Origin: Argopecten irradians
Taxonomy: Eukaryota > Mollusca > Bivalvia > Pectinida > Pectinidae
Length of the DNA stretch: 64,000 nucleotides
Reading direction: 5' to 3'
NCBI RefSeq assembly: GCF_041381155.1
Contig: NC_091134.1
Span: 8,030,755-8,094,754, forward strand
Part shown: piece by piece, positions 24,549-34,712 of the stretch
Layout: every line of letters starts with the position of its first letter
Numbering within the stretch: position 1 is the stretch's first letter
The notes under the pieces: generated by a model
What the model was told of the DNA's origin: nothing
Databases searched by the model: none
What the model saw: the letters and a program-made list of their open reading frames with translations, nothing else
Position numbers and translations under genes: made by a program

Positions 24549-25848
24549 CTGCCGCACAAAACACTAATATTAATACTAAATTCATACAAATTCATACGTA
24601 CTATACATTTACCTCTAACATTGCTTTTAGGATCAACACTTCTGAGGTTTAAGTCCCGTTGAAGTCTCGTTTCGACATAGATCAAAGAAATTATCAGATT
24701 TTCAAATAAATTCATCAATATCTGAAGGCAATATCTTGACTTTCAACAAAATTTTGAAAATGTCTCTCTTCCGGTTTTAGAACGGCCAAAATTTTGCCAT
24801 TTTTATTAATTTTTAATGCAATCTTTCCTAGGTCCGTTGTAATTAAAATGTTAAGCATTAATAATTGAAGTACCGTAATTTTCTGCGTATTGTCTGCGGG
24901 CTATACGATTTTTTACATAAAAAAGATGTCTATTGAGGGCTATCTGCCGATGCAGGCTATCTTTACGGAATTATAACGAAAAAAAAATATGCATGATATA
25001 CCTTGTAAACTATATTAAAGACGAAAAAAATAACAAGTGAATAGATAAGTCACCTTCCTACTATACTATTAAACAAATGAAATTCTATTGACCTAATATG
25101 TCTTAGAATAAACCTATGTCACCCTCCTCAAATGAAAGCAATATAAATATAGACTCACGTGTCATTATTACATAATGTGGCACATAGTTCATACAGGTGT
25201 TATACATGTACTTTCAAGGTAATACAGTTGTCACTTTATTTTTTACATTTAATGGTAATTTGAGCCCTTTTATTTTTTACCCTAAAATATTGAAAAATTA
25301 CAAATATTTAAAATAAAAAGGAAGCACACGAACTCTATATGTTTCTGTCTGATTTTAAAAAAGTAACATTTTCCTTATTGATATGCAAAATGTTTGCGAT
25401 AAACCTTTTCTATAAATGGTTAAATCTAGCAAAAATGGCTGAAAATGGTCAATGTTGTATCTCAAAATTAAGAGTTAGGTGCAGTAGTATATGTTGTTAT
25501 TGTGAATCTTATTAATAATAACTTTTTAACAGATATTTTTCAAAGAAGTATCATAAAATCTGCAAACGCTCGTATATATCACACACCTCTTTGTATGAAC
25601 TCGCATTGACAAAAATCTATATGAGAAAAAGTTTGATACATTAAAATTTTGACTTCTCAGAAGCGTACACCCTTAAGAAGGTTATACTTGTGATAAAAAG
25701 TTTGTCTTTTCAAATATTGATATGAGACTGATATGTGAATATGTTTTATACATATTACCTTAAAATGTCAGTTTAAATAATATATGAAATGTTCAATACA
25801 TAGAGCTAGAATTTCTCAACTTATACATTTAAACGTATACATTTGTAC
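24549..25848. other. intron of the NIT guanylyl cyclase
   Basis: AT-rich with no exon. A 25 bp block at 24,728-24,752 is identical to 23,897-23,921 inside the neighbouring exon. Around 24,886-24,990 there is a short repeat-like stretch (GGGCTAT... twice). Confidence 0.5.
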
Positions 25849-26002
25849 CTCGACAAAGGATCTCGCATCTGTTCCAGTTCTCATTAACATGCAGCATATC
25901 CATGATGACCGCGTTTAGCTGGGATTCATTCAAAGACTCTGTGGAGGACGAAGTACTCTTAATGGTGGCAGGCTCCACTGGTGTGATTTTGTTGCTTGCC
26001 AT
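25849..26002 (-). CDS. NIT guanylyl cyclase, first coding exon
   Basis: The ATG at 26,002-26,000 begins MASNKITPVEPATIKSTSSS and runs 51 codons plus one base to donor AG|GTAC. The last base plus GC of the next exon makes a Gly codon, so phase fits. There is no signal peptide; this is a cytosolic N-terminal tail before the first membrane helix. Ten bases upstream of the ATG lies a clean acceptor (TTTTTACAG at 26,013). The exon therefore probably starts at 26,012 with a little 5' UTR and is preceded by a non-coding exon. Confidence 0.82.
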
Positions 26003-26202
26003 GATGCTTTAACTGTAAAAATGTATTAAGTTTATCTTGTAAGCAATTAAATCAACTGCAAATCATTTTGCTGAAACATTTGAGTAATATACATTAACGT
26101 TTTAAAAGAACAAAGGACAAACATAGAAATCTGAAATCATATATTAAGTGCAAATATATATACATTATGTATTTTTCTAAGATAAATTACGACTTAAAAA
26201 AA
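26003..26202. other. gap between the cyclase and the Kolobok-like element
   Basis: Includes the acceptor and 10 bp of probable 5' UTR for the cyclase (26,003-26,015). Otherwise AT-rich with no promoter signal I can name. Confidence 0.4.
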
Positions 26203-26323
26203 TTAATGTTGACGAAAATTGCCGAAATTCAAATAAAACTGGCGAAGTGTCTTTGTATCTTGGAGAAAATCTGTACGGGTTACCTCCCCTTGAACCGGAA
26301 TCGCTGTGACATCATCTGAGCCA
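26203..26323. repeat. left inverted repeat of the Kolobok-like element
   Basis: The inner 21 bp (26,303-26,323, core TGTGACATCATCTGAGCC) matches the right end at 33,208-33,228 in reverse complement with one mismatch. Before it, GTTACCTCCCC matches GTTACGTCCCC. Farther out, TTGCC-GAAA...AGTGTC...TC-G-GAA blocks recur in the same order. Confidence 0.65.
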
Positions 26324-26559
26324 AACAGGATACACTACCGGTTTATACACTACATAGAAAAACTCCAGCCAACTTTGGATTTATCCGATAATGATCAGAG
26401 CGATTACGACGATATTCCAGAAGTATCGTTTAGTTTAGATATTTGTCCATATATGTACGAACCTGTAGCACAAACAGACACACAGAATGATTGTAGTTCG
26501 CCAGAATTAAGCGAAGACAGCGACGATTCCAGTCAGGACGACGGCGACAGTACACAATG
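26306..26559 (+). CDS. P2X7-C (ballast) domain protein, exon 1
   Basis: Open from just inside the left inverted repeat. It reads an acidic stretch (LDLSDNDQSDYDDIPEVSFS), then CPYMYEPV, then a Ser/Asp-rich linker, to donor AATG|GTTAGT. CPYMYEPV matches the start of P2RX7_C-type proteins. No in-frame ATG precedes it: a TGA lies five codons above the first codon. The start is therefore either the ATG at 26,453 or an unseen upstream exon. Phase 2 out fits exon 2 and creates the Trp of WCSC. Confidence 0.7.
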
Positions 26560-27602
26560 GTTAGTTTACTACACCATGCTATTTACATTTTTTGCATATC
26601 TTCCGCTGTTCTGTGTGTAGTCTGAAGTAAGTACCGCTATTTACAGTTTTGAAACTGTTCAAATTTCTGCCCATTGATACTATGCCATAACAATCATTTG
26701 ACTGACATCACCAGAAGATTGTATTTAGTTTGATTATCTGATCAGCTCATGCCAGTGATGGGTGTAGCCGGATCATGTTTTCACTCGACGTAGCCTAATG
26801 AACGTCTCAAAAATGTCGTGTAGTATTAAACCCTGACATTGTTGCATTGCAGTACCAATCATGCAAAGCAACAAAATAATAATCATTTATTATAATCAGC
26901 TGCCTATTTTTTATGACAATAGTCACGTGCACTTATATTGATTGAACTTCAATTTTAATAAAAAGCTGATAAAAATAATACATGTTGTGCACGTCTACAG
27001 TACTTCCTGTTAGTGCTAGATATAAACCACTTCATTTCAGTGAAAGCACAATGAAAAACAATGGTTAAATTTCATTATTTATTTATAATTTATCATTTTG
27101 AAACACAAACACACACACATATATGCAATGTACTGAATTAATTTAATTGTTGCAAATAAACCGGGCAGTCATATGGACATGTTATGATGACTGCTGATGA
27201 TTCCAAAAATAACTTACAAATAAATAAATCTGCAACATCCTGTTGAATCTGGCATTCTTATTTAGCTGTTTCAGCAATTATATCAATATAAATTGTTTAT
27301 TTCTTATATTTAGCACTTCTTGAAGTCAATAATTCTTAAGCAAGAGTGTACTTGCCAACAAATATCTGAAACTATATACATACTCTATTAAATTGAAACA
27401 GTTAATTCTAACTACAAAATCAGTTATTGATTTTGATCATTAAAAACACACAAGAGAGACTAAAAATATCCCAACAATACTGATACTAAACATATTAAAC
27501 TCAACATGTATATCATCATTCATCATGCTTTTTTTCTCAAACAACCAAAACAATATTAACTTTAACGGTAATCTTAATCGAATAAAAAAATTCCTTGAAC
27601 AG
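26560..27602. other. intron of the P2X7-C domain gene
   Basis: AT-rich, ends ...TTGAACAG. No exon or known repeat recognised. Confidence 0.5.
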
Positions 27603-27812
27603 GTGTTCTTGTAGTTTTTGCACCCCTATGCCCACAAGTGAGGAGCGAAAATGTTGCCACGATATGGACATTTTACAGGAGAAACTAGAAGGCATTGAAT
27701 GTACAACTCAGCATGAAGGATTTGCAGCAAACTGCTTAAACATCCATGTTCTGGAAACATCCTTCTACGAATATGCAGAAGAAAACGATGTTTCACAAGA
27801 AAACATCCACAG
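27603..27812 (+). CDS. P2X7-C (ballast) domain protein, exon 2
   Basis: 210 bp, acceptor GAACAG and donor CAG|GTACTT. It reads CSCSFCTPMPTSEERKCC, then ECTTQHEGFAANCLNIHVLE and FYEYAEENDVS. The clustered Cys/His (C-x-C-x2-C, CC, H, C) correspond to the zinc-binding part of the P2X7 cytoplasmic ballast, which in vertebrate P2X7 holds a dinuclear zinc site. There is no ion-channel part; stand-alone ballast proteins are common in aquatic invertebrates. Phase 1 in and 2 out fits both neighbours. Confidence 0.8.
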
Positions 27813-27924
27813 GTACTTGATCAGATCTACACTAGTTTCTTTAATCATTGGTTAATTATCGCTGGACTAATTTCATTTTATGATCAAAGATATCTATAGC
27901 ATAAATGATATAGCATATAGATAT

Positions 27925-27962
27925 AGGGGCCAAGATGGCCGAGTGGGTAAGATGTCTCTATC
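27925..27962 (+). repeat. tRNA-derived SINE head fragment
   Basis: GGGGCCAAGATGGCCGAGTG GGTAAG is a tRNA-Leu/Ser-like 5' arm with a pol III A box (TGGCCGAGTGG). No B box follows, so it is a truncated SINE head in the intron. It is the missing half of the type of SINE found 5'-truncated at 36,664. Confidence 0.5.
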
Positions 27963-28104
27963 TATAGCACAATTATGTTAATTAATTTATACCTACATAT
28001 AAAAGGGTAAATTTGTTAGAATGTTAAGCATTTATAACTTGTGTCTGTCAGCTTTATGCAATTACATTATGTACATTGCTTTGTTTTCTCTCGCTTTAAT
28101 TTAG

Positions 28105-28261
28105 AACCTACAGACATGTTGCATATAGAAGGTTCATAAGAAGGACGTGGAAAATTCTAGGCAAGAGGAATCGTAAAGTATTACCATCTTGTGCTGTCTC
28201 TGCTATTAGAAGAACTTTTCCATCAGAACAGTTCACATGGTTTCTCTACCCTCGTTTCTAA
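28105..28261 (+). CDS. P2X7-C (ballast) domain protein, exon 3
   Basis: 157 bp, acceptor TTTAG, ends TAA. It reads YRHVAYRRFIRRTWKILGKR then LPSCAVSAIRRTFPSEQFTW and stops after LYPRF. LPSC-x-V-x-x-IR-x-x-FP is the hallmark C-terminus of the P2RX7_C family (LPSCCRWRIR..FP in vertebrate P2X7). All three exons join in phase with no stop. Confidence 0.82.
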
Positions 28262-30722
28262 CTGAAAAGTTAGGGTTTTGTATAGAGGAACATTTTCCAT
28301 AGGGACAGTTCACTGTGTTTATCAGCCGTCATTTCTAACATGGATAAGAGTTAAATTTCCTGCAAGTGTTTTGTATAACAGTGTCTCTGTCATAGTTGTG
28401 GATCACTGCTCTCCGTTGTCCAGAGATGGATGGTGGAGCAGGATCAATCTCTTGAATCAGTGCTCTCAGGACCTGGCCATAGCTGCTAAGCATCTCTCTC
28501 CTGACTACCACTTCCTCCATAAGCTCTTGGATGTAATCTGTCAATAAAGAAAGAAAAATACAGCAAAAAAATATCTTTTTGGCCTTAAATGTACCTTAAA
28601 GAAATCTCAGGACTACTATTGACCAGTTGTGAGGAATTAACAGAAGAATAGTTAAAGGATGTAGCAGAATCAATATAAATTAATTTTATTTACCAAAGTT
28701 CTGGTTGACTTTAACTTCTTTTCCCACCTTTCCTACTCTTAGGAAATGACACTCTGTATTGCCCTTTTCCATCCTTCATTGCCTGTGATCTTGATGAATT
28801 AGCATTGAAGTGAAGTGCCGCAAGGGTGAAAGATTCCAAGAGCAATAACAAAACAATTAGTTATTAAATTTTGAACATGTTATGTTGTTGATTGAATATA
28901 TATTCATGTGTTTGTTTTGATTCTGTCAACATTTTGTTATCTTGTGCTATGGACTTATATATATATGTTAGAAAGTTATAACTACAACAATGAACTATCA
29001 TTCACTACCTGGCTTTCATCTGGATGTAAAATAGTGTGTTGACTTTGGTGCAAAGAAGTTCACAATGTAGTGGAAAGATTCGAGGCTTGATGTCTGTTCT
29101 GCTGGAGACAGTTTACCAATGTCCTTCAGAAGCAGCTTACTGTGGACAATCTTTTCCACTTCTCCCAAAGCCTTGCTACCTGAAATGATAATACAGTGTA
29201 AAATTAGTGTTTCCTTACGCTGACAGGGTACACCCATCAGCTAACAATGTATCACAATTAAAAAGTCAAAAAATTAAAAAAAAAATCTTGCTGTAATAAT
29301 ATTATATAGTCTTTATAACATTAATAATCTTTTGGAACCTAGTCATGTCAAGGTTATGGAATTTTAACACACTATACTATTCAAGCAAACAGCAGGTCAA
29401 CTTTCCTTTTCTCTTTTCAATTTTGTTATTGTGAAATTAGCAACATTTCAGTCTGTTTGATGTAATCAAAAGTTAAAGTTATTCACTTCAACAAACTTCT
29501 GTCTTCTTCACAGCATAATTAGTAATTTCGTCAAAAATTACCTGGTATGTCTGTTTCAAATAATGTTTGAAATAATGTGGTTGTACTATGAGTTAATTCT
29601 TAGTTATACCTGGCTTAAACCATATCCTTTCAAGATTTCCATGCTAGCAGCTCTGATATTTGTCACCATGACCCTTGTGGATGTTAGCTATGTGATTAGT
29701 GATGCTAGTCCACTTTTGTCGTACGGGTTCCCCATCACCATCACTGCTGGCAGCACACCAATACACATGGTTGCCTATGGATCTTGCCCATTGTCCGACC
29801 AATGTATATTTCTTTGTCTTGCCAAGAGCTACCAACTTATTGTAGACACCTGAATACCAGAAAATATTAGATTAGTGACAAGTTCAGAAGATAAATAATT
29901 GATGCAAGGCAAATGTATGGCAATTGATCTGGATAAGACTAAATTATTAAATATATAGTTTCATAGAAACTCAAGTAAATTATATATTCAAATAGCAGTC
30001 ATAACAAAATCATAAAATGTTTTACTGCTATATATTCTGTTATAAATGTCAGTTAAAGAACTAAGTATAAGTTATAACCTTTTGAGAACTTAACACTATG
30101 TGACTGTATTATAAAGTGGTAGAATGTAGGGACTCCATAAATACAATGTAATGAATGTAGTGATAATTACTACTATAAATCAACCAAATTTGAATGTGTA
30201 TGTGGCATCTGGTGTACATAAATTATGCATAACAATTAATTAGCTAAAAGAAGAAAGTGCTATTTATTTAATTACTATTTTGAAATATATGAGATTGAAA
30301 TTTAAACACTTGCCTTTAGCAACATGCCACACGTCAAACAAATGGTTGATACTGGGACATTCTGTTCTCATGAACTTTTTCACCTGACTGTGTCTATCTG
30401 TAACTAAGTCTGATATAGTCACACCTTCTTCCTGGAGATGATGTAGTGCACGTTTCAGCCCTTCAAGTTCCATACCGTAGGAGTTTTTCACTTCATTTGA
30501 CTGTAAAATTGATATATATTATCATATATACACACACAAATTATTTCACTTATTGATTTGCCAATTGATTCGGACTTTTATATGTTCTGCAGATCTCACA
30601 ATGTATTACATTCTTGATCCATCACGTGTTTTATGTGTATAAATATTATCAAAATATCTAAAACAACAAGAAAGTTTAAAAATAACTATAACGATGTCAC
30701 AAATACTTCATATTACACTTAC

Positions 30723-31396
30723 CTGAACAAGTTGTACGTCACTGACTTTTGAAGTCTGTGCATCCATTAAGGTGTAACTCCCATATTTGGCAGTATGGCC
30801 TGGTGAAGAGCATCGAGCATCAACCCCAAGTTTAAGTTTTTGACCACTATTTCGCAGTTGTTCAAACATAGTTGACTGCTGAAACTGCCAGCAGGACAAA
30901 GTGGAAGGAACTATGTAAGTCCGTTGCAACATATTGTAGGATGTACAACACAGTCTGGAAATGCCTGCATGGTGCATAAATTTAAAGTGTTAACTGGACT
31001 ATTTCCACTGAAAAATATTGCACTGGCAATAATGATATTTCCCCAAGGCATAGATTTTGAAAATGGCTGACTACACCACTGCCGTGTAAAACCACACATA
31101 CATCTGGAAGAAAAACACACGCATGTCCCTATAATAGTTCTTACATGTTGCAAACTTGTTCTCATACAATCTGGACAGGAATCTAAAAGTTCCATCAGAC
31201 ACTGTTCAAAGACCACATACTTCTTGGCCTTGTCCGGTTCAGTTTCCTGAGTATCCATGTTAACTTGTTGATTATCAACAGTTTCATCATTATCGTCCTC
31301 AGTCTCACAAGTTGGCACCCAGTCAGGATCATGTGTTGATGAATCAACCTCCTCCTGATAATCATCCAGACTCTGGTCTGTTCCAGTTTCCACTAC
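30723..31396 (-). pseudogene. transposase exon 3 (acidic linker, zinc motif, first catalytic Asp)
   Basis: Acceptor TTACAG, donor CAG|GTAAGT. It opens with an acidic stretch (DWVPTCETEDDNDETVDNQQ), then CPDCMRTSLQHVRTIIGT, WCSQPFSK, NIIIASAIFFSGNSPVNTL. After a one-base shift come HHAGISRLCCTSYNMLQRTY, VPSTLSCWQ and DARCSSPGHTAKYGSYTLMD, with the first acidic catalytic residue. Confidence 0.75.
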
Positions 31397-32171
31397 CTGT
31401 AATTTTTTTATATCTGGTACACTGTGTCGATGTGTTTTCCATCATACAAGTCGCTTGAACACCACATGAAGATTTTGGTCTAGCTGAAGTCACCTGCAGC
31501 GACACATGCCGTCGTTGCTGTTAGAGAAAATTAAACAGATATAATTTATTAAAACCTTCATTGAAAAAAAAATCAAGATAAAAGTACTTCAAAAGGTAAT
31601 TCCATTCAACAAGTTAAGTTTTCTTAATGATCATTAAAATTAAAGTAAGATATTTCCCATCCACAATACTCCAGGGGTTACTATCACTGATGTTATATCC
31701 ACCCCTGGACTATCTCAAAGTAAAACTGGAGGCAATTGAGGAGAGAAAAAAGATCCAATCAGTCAATCACGGGCCTCCAGAAACTTCCTTTGAAGATTTC
31801 AAAGAGTGATGCCCCACTTCAAAGCAACACAGTGTAAATATACCATTCCTTTGATGTGCATCAAGGATCATTACCAGTTTTACTACATGTATTAAATAGT
31901 CTAGGGGTGGATAGAATATATAACCTCAATTAATTACAGTAACCTCTGGAGTATGAGGAGCATATTTCCTCATCAAGGTGTTTTCAAAACATTCATTTGC
32001 AAATATTTACATATTCTAAATGATTAAATAGTATTAAATATTTTTCCTTTCTTACAGGTACATATGATATACTTCTAGTAATGCTAAAGTAATATAATAT
32101 ATCAAATCTTGTAATAAGATGTATTTAAAATTGTAGAATTGTACAATTATATTTGACTCGGTATAACATAC
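31397..32171. other. transposase intron, no exon confirmed
   Basis: A short possible exon near 31,483-31,520 (QRRHVSLQ on minus with splice-like edges) could extend the linker. Otherwise nothing is seen. Confidence 0.35.
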
Positions 32172-32722
32172 CACTATATTGTAGGAAGTCTGACATCCAA
32201 CAGAAAATCTCCCTGTATCCAGATCATCTGTCCCAACACATTTGTCCCTGGGGCCTGGTTTTTCTGTCTGTGTCTCAATATGGCACTGGTCTGGTCTGTA
32301 GTGCACACTGTCATATTCATTCTCATCCTGATGCATGTCAGTGATATCAGCTAACATCTAACAATAAATAGTTTTGTCTATTAGTCTACTATTAGAATTT
32401 ATTTCAAGGATATATATTATCAACATTTGCTTTTTTATACATGTTAATGATGCAATATTTTAATACAGTTAGGTTTTTTCAATATAGCCTAGCTACTGTT
32501 TTAGCAGAAAAAATACATTTGTACACCTTGTGACTTGTGTACCTTGATAACCTGGTAGCCATACATGTTGGAACCCATGTTACTGTTTGGCCTATGTTTT
32601 AACTTTTGATGATTTTTTTAACATGGTATAGATATATAATAATCGCACAATGAAATTATTTTTCGTTAAAAATCCGTTTTCACACATAAAAAACGGATGT
32701 TTACTTAAAATGCATAACATAC

Positions 32723-33137
32723 CTCAAATCTTCGTCTTTTTTTTATCGCACGACTGTTACGACTCCTTGATGTTGATCGTTTCCTGCTTGGTGTTTCATG
32801 ATAAACAGAGGGGGTTCGATCCCTATTTGCTCTTTCACTATCGACGTCTCTAGATGTAGGCGAAGAAAAGTTAAAAATGGTGGGGACAGCATCCGGCTTC
32901 AGTTTTAAGGACTTAGGGTCATATCCGATGGAGCTCACAATGCGGGGATCTTTGGTAAAAGATTCAGGTGTGAAATGTACCTAACAGTCTGCTGTAATCC
33001 GTCGGCACGAAGTCTTTCCTCTTTAATCGAAGAGTCCATTCTTTACGTAGCCTTGGAAACTTCGGGAATGTAAACCAACTTATCTTCTCTCTGTTTCCCG
33101 TTCTATTCGTACAATTAAATGCCGCACACTGAACCAT
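32723..33137 (-). pseudogene. THAP DNA-binding domain exon
   Basis: The ATG at 33,137 begins MVQCAAFNCTNRTGNREKIS (C-x4-C), then WFTFPKFP, EWTLRLKRKDFVPTDYSRL, and after a frame change HFTPESF, GYDPKSLKLKPDAVPTIF. This is the C-x4-C...C-x2-H and AVPTIF order of a THAP zinc finger. The 2-base loss falls where the third Cys should be. A basic tail (RKRSTSRSRNSRAIKKRRR) looks like a nuclear localisation signal. The donor is GAG|GTATGT. Confidence 0.8.
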
Positions 33138-33203
33138 TGTTTACATATTACGACACGACCGAGTATTTGACATATGGCGCGCTCAGCTGTCATCTGTCAT
33201 CTG

Positions 33204-33322
33204 CGAGTGGCTCAGATGACGTCACAGCGGAGGGGACGTAACTCGTATCGGAATCCTTCACCGAGAAAACGACACTGAAAATCGGGTTTTTTGTTTCAGG
33301 CAAAATGTTACAAAAGCATTAT
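33204..33322. repeat. right inverted repeat of the Kolobok-like element
   Basis: Reverse complement of the left end, ordered in matching blocks. It contains a perfect CRE palindrome TGACGTCA (33,217-33,224), about 80 bp upstream of the transposase ATG. Outer limit estimated from ATAATG/TTAATG. Confidence 0.65.
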
Positions 33323-33734
33323 TTTTTTCTAAAATTTAAGCGGATATCGTTTATTATGATAAATTTGAACTGGAAAATACATATATCATAATGTAAACTT
33401 AGTTTCTATGTTTGTCACCTTTAAATGTTACCAATTGGTAACTGTATACCTCATTTGTCTGATATGATCCATGGTTTTATCTAATGCTACGAGAAAACCA
33501 CATGCTTATTAAAATATTTTGTCAGTTATTGCATAAAACGTGTCGTTAACTCGCAATTGCAAATCAGAAAAGGATTTATCTACCCTTGATGGTGACAGAC
33601 GTGTGTTATAGGAGTGTTATAGGAGTGCTATATGATTATTGATTATATTAATCGTCCTCAATTTTTGTTGTGATGGTACACAACTATGACTTCTTCACCC
33701 ATTCGCACTTTAGTGTTTGTCTGACGTTTGGATC
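33323..33734. other. between elements, no gene
   Basis: AT-rich. TATAGGAGTGTTATAGGAGT at 33,608 is a short duplication. The true 5' edge of the LINE to the right may lie here. Confidence 0.4.
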
Positions 33735-34712
33735 TAGACTTTAAGAGTGAAACTTTGTTTCTCTAATCATCTGAATTCTACTCACATCATCTACAACACG
33801 GGATGGCGCTACTGCAAAGACCAATGTCTTTGCATTTTAATCACAGATGGAATAACCCACAAAGAGGTTTTAAGCTGTTGGGAAAGTGATACAAAAGATA
33901 AATGTGAAATCTTTACAGATCACGGACAAAATGTGTATAATGACCATCACCGACAACGCGACGAAAAACAATCACCTCGTGTAATCAATGTCCGCATTAA
34001 AAGGGGTAGGGAACGTAAATCGACAATGGAACACGGTACATACAGTTAGAAAAATACTGATCGGTGCTCCCGCTCACGTTATCGGTGCAATGAGAGTGAC
34101 CATTCTTCATCTCGATGTCCAAACAGGAGAGAGACTGTAAAAGCATGCTTCAAATAAAACTCCACAGAACAACTTATCAGCAACTGCCCTCAGAAGAACA
34201 AACGGGTATGTCACTACTGTGGAGAAAAGGGACATACAAAGAGATTATGATAAAAAAACAACAAAACTAGAGGTAGCGAGAGACATGTATGGAGATTATA
34301 CACCGGAAATCATGGAAGAACAACATGCGAAGCAACATGATGAACAAAAACAGTGCTCGGGCTTCCAAATGTAAAGGAAACCAAAAACTGTCAGAGTAGT
34401 CAGGTGGTGGTTTGTTTAGGCACAAATGACATTTCAAAACACCACAATGTATCACAGAGGCGCTTTTTCAATTTGAAAATGCCTTCCCGGACACATCGCT
34501 GGGTGTTTGTAACATAATCCCACGGAAAGGGAAAAGCAATCGCATCCAGGAACTAAACGAAACCACAGAGAGTGCAAATAAGTTCATTGAAAAACTGTGT
34601 AAGAGAACAGAAAAACTATCATTGATTGACACTCGCAGTGGATTCGTACAAAATGGTACACCAAGTAAAGGTAAATATGATACCAATGATCCGAGTGATG
34701 TGCACATTAGTT
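33735..34712 (+). pseudogene. LINE ORF1: zinc knuckle plus SGNH-like domain
   Basis: CLCILITDGITHKEVLSCWE and an RxKRGRERK basic region are followed by CHYCGEKGHTKR, a CCHC knuckle whose last Cys is lost. Then VVVCLGTNDISKHH (SGNH block III, G-x-N-D), later IIPRKGKS and, near the end, DPSDVHIS (the D-x-x-H block of SGNH hydrolases). Frames change several times. Known Tx1/CR1-group LINEs can carry an esterase-like domain in ORF1; its role there may be in RNP assembly or membrane contact. Confidence 0.6.

Follow-up and report, generated by a model that had tools for sequence, protein, structure and literature searches.

A decayed copy of a two-gene Kolobok transposon carrying the P2X7 ballast-type gene KolX in the scallop Argopecten irradians

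The stretch of Argopecten irradians DNA analysed here (the window: 64,000 nucleotides of contig NC_091134.1, positions 8,030,755 to 8,094,754) contains two genes that lie tail to tail between terminal inverted repeats. The first, on the plus strand, encodes KolX, a protein related to the ballast domain of the P2X7 receptor, and the second, on the minus strand from 33137 to 28335, encodes a THAP-DDE transposase. We are confident that together they make up a two-gene Kolobok DNA transposon, here in a decayed copy, with KolX as its own accessory gene and not an accidental host gene. Its features are given below in positions of the window.

26114–33420, no strand: whole Kolobok element, about 7.3 kb, delimited by homology to the copies L009, L010, L011 and L013 within 26116–33429 and by termini and TTAA
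26114–26129, plus strand: left terminal inverted repeat, eroded in the window copy (the sister copies L009, L010 and L011 read TTAA followed by AGGTGACAAACATAGAAA)
26302–26323, plus strand: left arm of a subterminal inverted repeat, upstream of KolX
26375–26559, plus strand: KolX exon 1, acidic N-terminal part, beginning at the ATG of three sister copies, which is not ATG here; donor site placed by eye
27603–27812, plus strand: KolX exon 2, with C-x-C-x2-C, CC and C ligands; splice sites placed by eye
28105–28261, plus strand: KolX exon 3, with YRHVAYR ... LPSC ... IR ... FP, stop included
28335–28538, minus strand: transposase C-terminal exon, stop included
29019–29180, minus strand: transposase exon with SSLESFH, presumed third catalytic residue
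29647–29847, minus strand: transposase exon between the presumed D2 and E, presumably the zinc-finger region
30309–30500, minus strand: transposase exon with VTDRHSQ ... DVWH, presumed second catalytic D
30723–30929, minus strand: transposase exon with GVDARCSSPGHTAKYGSYT, presumed first catalytic D
32708–33137, minus strand: THAP domain coding region including the AVPTIF box, frame broken within the domain in the window copy
33208–33229, minus strand: right arm of the subterminal inverted repeat, upstream of the transposase gene
33403–33420, minus strand: right terminal inverted repeat, intact, from a repeat scan and comparison with the ends of sister copies
33421–33424, no strand: right TTAA target-site copy, whose left counterpart (26110–26113) has decayed to ACAA

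A preliminary description, made from the window alone, had proposed a P2RX7_C-type gene and a THAP transposase gene with stops 73 bp apart, and all of this holds. Joined exons 2 and 3 of KolX score 46.8 bits against P2RX7_C (PF20478; cut-off 23.5) and exon 3 alone 30.8 bits; exon 2 alone gave no Pfam match at E 0.1. Nine plus-strand open pieces from 26200–28258 matched P2RX7_C only and no P2X channel domain, a scan that shorter exons would escape. Compared with the structures of the PDB, the window KolX aligns with P2X7 residues 477–594 (E 4.6e-5); a profile of nine KolX rows does so at E 1.9e-7 and, up to E 10, finds just four sequences, every one of them P2X7. On these matches KolX is predicted to have the ballast fold, as described for the second protein of the Kol0 group of Kolobok elements. 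The stops lie at 28259–28261 (plus strand) and 28335–28337 (minus strand). An imperfect 47-nt direct repeat (77%; 28216–28262 and 28293–28339) covers both of them, and the tails of the two genes thus sit on duplicated sequence.

The THAP domain of the transposase reaches 30.3 bits (Pfam cut-off 23.9). No transposase model passed, the best Pfam row in the DDE part being MULE with 18.1 bits, below its cut-off of 27.6; the presumed DDE and zinc-finger parts, assigned by their motifs, are shared by the copies compared. Nested inverted repeats occupy 31666–31954 of the transposase gene region, where other copies differ in length, and are possibly a small foldback insertion. The decay of the window copy shows in its eroded left end, its broken THAP reading frame and a presumed KolX start that is not ATG; sister copies free of these three faults exist elsewhere in the genome.

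Inverted repeats at 26.2–26.32 and 33.2–33.32 kb had been taken as the ends of the element, at 26203 and 33322. The pair itself is real, with its inner block in the 22-bp repeat 26302–26323 / 33208–33229 (95%, 21 of 22 positions complementary), but it is subterminal: the true ends, 26114 and 33420, lie 89 and 98 bp farther out. There, a perfect 14-nt inverted pair (26116–26129 / 33403–33416) forms part of an 18-bp terminal inverted repeat. In a BLAST comparison of 25700–34000 with the retrieved loci, homology to L009 (contig C5), L010 (C743) and L011 (C6) begins at 26116, and on the right it stops at 33420 in L010, 33424 in L011 and 33429 in L013 (C597), the alignment with L009 ending at 32963. 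The right end of L011 and L013 is the complement of AGGTGACAAACATAGAAA followed by TTAA; that of L010 is disturbed. Both the C6 copy and the window copy have the termini AG ... CT, of the 5'-RR ... YY-3' type of Kolobok elements. A whole-genome pattern search for the terminus, with up to two mismatches, turned up 19 places, of which 11 match exactly. Inexact matches are uninformative, because the reversed pattern, used as a control, found 26 places at the same tolerance. Eight of the exact places are ends read in copies, two are the ends of a short derivative (L030, below) and one, on C205, adjoins a match from another search.

The 22-bp subterminal repeat is perfect in L010, whereas in L011 one extra base interrupts the left arm; in L009, where the retrieved sequence matches only up to 32963, no right arm was found. 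In L010 the repeat contains TGACGTCA, a CRE-like palindrome. It precedes the start of either gene by about 50–70 bp, in the manner of a promoter element shared by both. Outside the element, the left flank holds a repeat of 85–90 bp (25593–25683) with at least 39 further copies in the genome. We also considered whether the element could be a KolobokP and rejected this identity, since long terminal direct repeats of about 450 or 660 bp are not present: the 47-nt pair near the gene tails is the only direct repeat of at least 25 nt in 26050–33480. The His-Me finger nuclease of KolobokP did not appear in general Pfam scans of four and nine peptides, no dedicated search having been made.

Evidence that the unit is mobile comes from its sister copies. 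The window element is matched end to end by those on C743 and C6, apart from the disturbed right end of the former, and up to 32963 by the C5 copy. The flanks of the window copy, L009, L010 and L011 have no match with one another. All three sisters have TTAA at the left end, and the C6 copy has it on both sides. The left flank of this copy (L011, C6:40177300), a 7,948-bp element between two TTAAs, is matched at 96% by a stretch some 56 kb from it on C6 (L042, C6:40232500-40234200). There the left flank continues directly into the right flank across one TTAA, the two matches being 96.4% over 611 bases and 97.3% over 442 bases. L042, the empty counterpart of the occupied site, could stem from duplication of the segment or represent a second haplotype kept in the assembly. 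Together with this single-TTAA site, the two TTAAs of the C6 copy show the target-site duplication of Kolobok, of which the window copy retains the right TTAA and has lost the left. A search for an empty site of the window copy itself by its left flank matched the whole query only at its own place, the other rows being the short repeat. From the TTAAs and termini of the sister copies, their unrelated flanks and the C6 empty site, it follows that a unit of 7–8 kb inserts as one piece, KolX included.

A short derivative of about 1.1 kb has kept both ends with TTAA and KolX exon 1, without KolX exons 2–3 and without the transposase exons. Its two occurrences, L029 (G000:C13:7175500) and L030 (G000:C13:7265400), lie about 90 kb apart in opposite orientation. 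They are counted as one insertion because they are 99.8% identical, flanks included; this is one short non-autonomous insertion present in two inverted copies.

The association recurs throughout the genome (846 million bases in 1508 contigs). PF20478 gave 68 matches, the window KolX 69, the window transposase 142 and a transposase peptide of a second lineage 32, which merge into 72 KolX and 87 transposase loci, window included; these are lower bounds, the search tool scoring only the best candidates. With a pairing distance of 12 kb, 51 of the 72 KolX loci, that of the window among them, have a Kolobok transposase as neighbour (0.18 expected by chance), and 54 of the 87 transposase loci have a KolX. 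Every one of the 51 neighbouring pairs is tail to tail. Restricting the count to the 16 large contigs, a partial guard against duplicate contigs, leaves 34 of 46 KolX loci paired. An earlier count with PF20478 and the window transposase only had paired 37 of 56, all 37 tail to tail. It missed some KolX genes, as the loci retrieved for reading reveal: of these 20, 16 were chosen for both matches and four (L012, L013, L017 and L021) for a transposase without a PF20478 match, and all four carry KolX exons. The preliminary proposal that the P2X7-type gene travels in a transposon is supported. Two independent genes side by side by accident, between inverted repeats due to chance, might be suspected from the window copy by itself, decayed and eroded at its left end as it is. 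The probability of such a coincidence is negligible, and we reject it on the genome-wide pairing and on the empty C6 counterpart, which lacks the whole unit; the unrelated flanks of the sisters and the paired TTAAs of the C6 copy add their weight.

KolX occurs in this genome in two lineages. In L001–L007, L032 and L033 the gene has a different exon boundary, and L008 shares at least the last part; where the transposase side was read (L032 and L033), D1 and D2 stand in a single exon. The KolX-side end of the second lineage reads GGCT followed by TTAA, the flanks diverging thereafter, in two of the three copies compared (C7 and C88; C11 differs). L032 and L034 (G000:C544) are direct tandem copies of this lineage, 10.5 kb apart and 99.8% identical over 7 kb, and represent either a multimer or an assembly artefact. 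There is also a solitary intronless KolX-like frame of 181 aa (L035:3360-3905) with no transposase match within 12 kb, a candidate for a domesticated or retro-copied gene; the same locus has a long minisatellite, open in several frames, at 1521-2740.

Residues were compared in 14 KolX rows of this genome, picked so as to leave out copies that were partial, carried stops or were nearly identical to others, as well as the degenerate L022, in which a cysteine is lost. The first part is missing from L008, and for the second lineage exons were delimited and spliced together by eye. Cysteines 477, 479, 482, 498, 499 and 506 of P2X7 are kept in 13 of 13 rows, and cysteine 572, like R546, Y550, R551 and R578, in 14 of 14. 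H547 is found in eight of 14 rows (four of nine in the window lineage and four of four in the second, not in the solitary L035), and R574 and K583 of the guanosine diphosphate (GDP) site in none. The ballast cysteines are therefore retained and the GDP pocket only in part. In the passages of Rump et al. 2020 on invertebrate proteins, R546 and R578 are the only GDP residues conserved and H547 is not found (PMC7016195); in contrast, H547 is present here in both lineages.

Selection on the two genes was compared in 16 of 120 possible pairs, fixed beforehand. In the eight between-family pairs used, the ratio of nonsynonymous to synonymous differences (pN/pS) is 0.16–0.48 for KolX and 0.16–0.50 for the transposase, rough values since silent sites are saturated; within-family pairs show too few changes to interpret (KolX pN/pS 0 to 1.41). 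The figures speak for KolX being under constraint similar in magnitude to that of the transposase.

Several observations weigh against KolX being a regular part of the element. Transposase loci without a neighbouring KolX match, part of what the preliminary description had named as evidence against its claim, do occur: in 33 of the 87 no such match lies within 12 kb, and the short derivative, which has both ends, lacks both genes save KolX exon 1. The idea that every Kolobok transposase of this genome carries KolX was dropped accordingly. Five of the 33 are distant (27–29% identity, open frames of 163–587 aa), perhaps members of other Kolobok lineages. Distance cannot be the whole reason for the missing KolX, because at least seven of the loci contain pieces at least 60% identical to the window transposase (C4:43227598, C8:34597032, C14:22485464, C15:17431487, C15:17439370, C15:25091514 and C27:131006). 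Among these close relatives, the C8 locus (G000:C8:34597032-34599609), the only one read beyond its transposase match, has the last exon and no KolX in the following 2.3 kb. Conversely, 21 of 72 KolX loci have no transposase match within 12 kb. Part of the family may do without KolX, may have lost it, or may carry it in a form too decayed to detect. The same gaps are what would be expected if KolX were a host gene carried as a chance passenger without a role; this we consider very improbable, in view of the invariant tail-to-tail arrangement across two KolX lineages, the constraint just described and the published Kol0 group, whose second protein is KolX (PMC9587614). The anatomy, the ends, TTAA, the empty site and the recurrent pairing lead us to regard the window gene as part of a mobile Kolobok.

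The preliminary description, made without searches, was not aware of an earlier account of the association of the two genes. Its observation was true and correctly read, and it is already published, the capture by P2X7 included: in the parts of Kojima & Bao 2022 that treat these elements, elements of the Kol0 group code for a transposase and for KolX, the latter has the P2X7 ballast fold and resembles P2X7 residues 476–595, P2X7 was born from the fusion of a P2X4-like gene with KolX, and Nanor is likely a domesticated KolX (PMC9587614). In the literature searched, KolX as a whole word was found in that paper alone, and P2X7 together with Kolobok in only one other, where each word appears once. 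Here the observation is strengthened and slightly extended. This genome adds a second KolX lineage and clear evidence that the gene moves together with its transposon as a single unit. In a section of Rump et al. 2020 (PMC7016195), ballast genes of different animals are described as keeping an 'ancestral synteny' with two markers; this may partly reflect the transposase gene of the same element.

The second lineage might also bear on the origin of P2X7. Identity to rat P2X7 is 43% for L033, 36% for L005, 34% for L032 and 32% for L008, as against 29–34% for the nine window-lineage rows and 25% for L035, so that two of the four second-lineage rows compared are closer to P2X7 than any window-lineage row, and the second lineage offers a better place to begin asking what the ballast domain did before its capture by an ion channel. 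A midpoint-rooted tree of 15 rows groups rat P2X7 with the second lineage at 89/88, below the starred level of the tool, with rat P2X7 and L035 as long branches; this grouping is a lead only.

By analogy with the Kolobok superfamily, the transposase would bind the terminal repeats through its THAP domain and would cut and paste the element into TTAA. KolX may help or tune transposition; its most likely role would be that of a small partner of the transposase complex, stabilised by zinc and binding phosphate or a nucleotide, and a KolX of this kind would later have been fused to a P2X4-like gene to give P2X7, as proposed in the corresponding part of Kojima & Bao 2022 (PMC9587614). KolX could instead belong to the element and repress the transposase or regulate copy number; its being a separate gene on the opposite strand, and the matched subterminal repeats upstream of both genes, readable by one factor, are weak arguments for this option, which we judge unlikely. 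Returning to KolX as a partner that assists transposition, a bolder and quite improbable version has it supply in trans the guanine-nucleotide site that the P-element transposase has in cis. The presence of R546 and R578 in all 14 rows, and of H547 in eight rows of both lineages, is in its favour; a site just like that of P2X7 is argued against because R574 and K583, two of the five GDP residues, are absent from every row. If it were true, P2X7 would have put a cofactor site of transposition to new use in its GDP-binding ballast, and KolX, with its nucleotide site in a separate protein, would follow the P element as the second such case.

Known systems place the element more closely. P-element transposase likewise combines THAP DNA binding with a DDE-type catalytic domain, the catalytic residues being presumed here, but it has its guanosine triphosphate site inside the transposase, and the P element makes 8-bp duplications (PMC7776569). 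The Kolobok features set out in the relevant section of PMC6004289 (a THAP domain with AVPTIF, DDE, an H2CH finger, TTAA and AG ends) are those of the Xenopus XKol elements, with full lengths of 6.8–13.9 kb; the scallop element shares with them the THAP domain with its AVPTIF box, a presumed DDE domain, the AG termini, TTAA and a comparable length, while the passages on these elements do not mention KolX. From the P2X7 receptor (6u9v), KolX differs in that no channel part was found with it and in the absence of R574 and K583 from all 14 rows; residues 477–594 align, and the ballast cysteines, R546, Y550, R551 and R578 are kept. Finally, the Kol0-lineage Kolobok elements, with Kolobok-1_XT as exemplar in the passages describing them (PMC9587614), share the transposase, with a DDD/E domain that is presumed here, KolX with its predicted ballast fold, the TTAA duplication and the 5'-RR / YY-3' termini, although the window copy is decayed and is likened to Kol0 through its KolX. 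With an empty site and a genome-wide count, another genome now backs the published view of the P2X7 ballast as an accessory protein that belongs to transposons.

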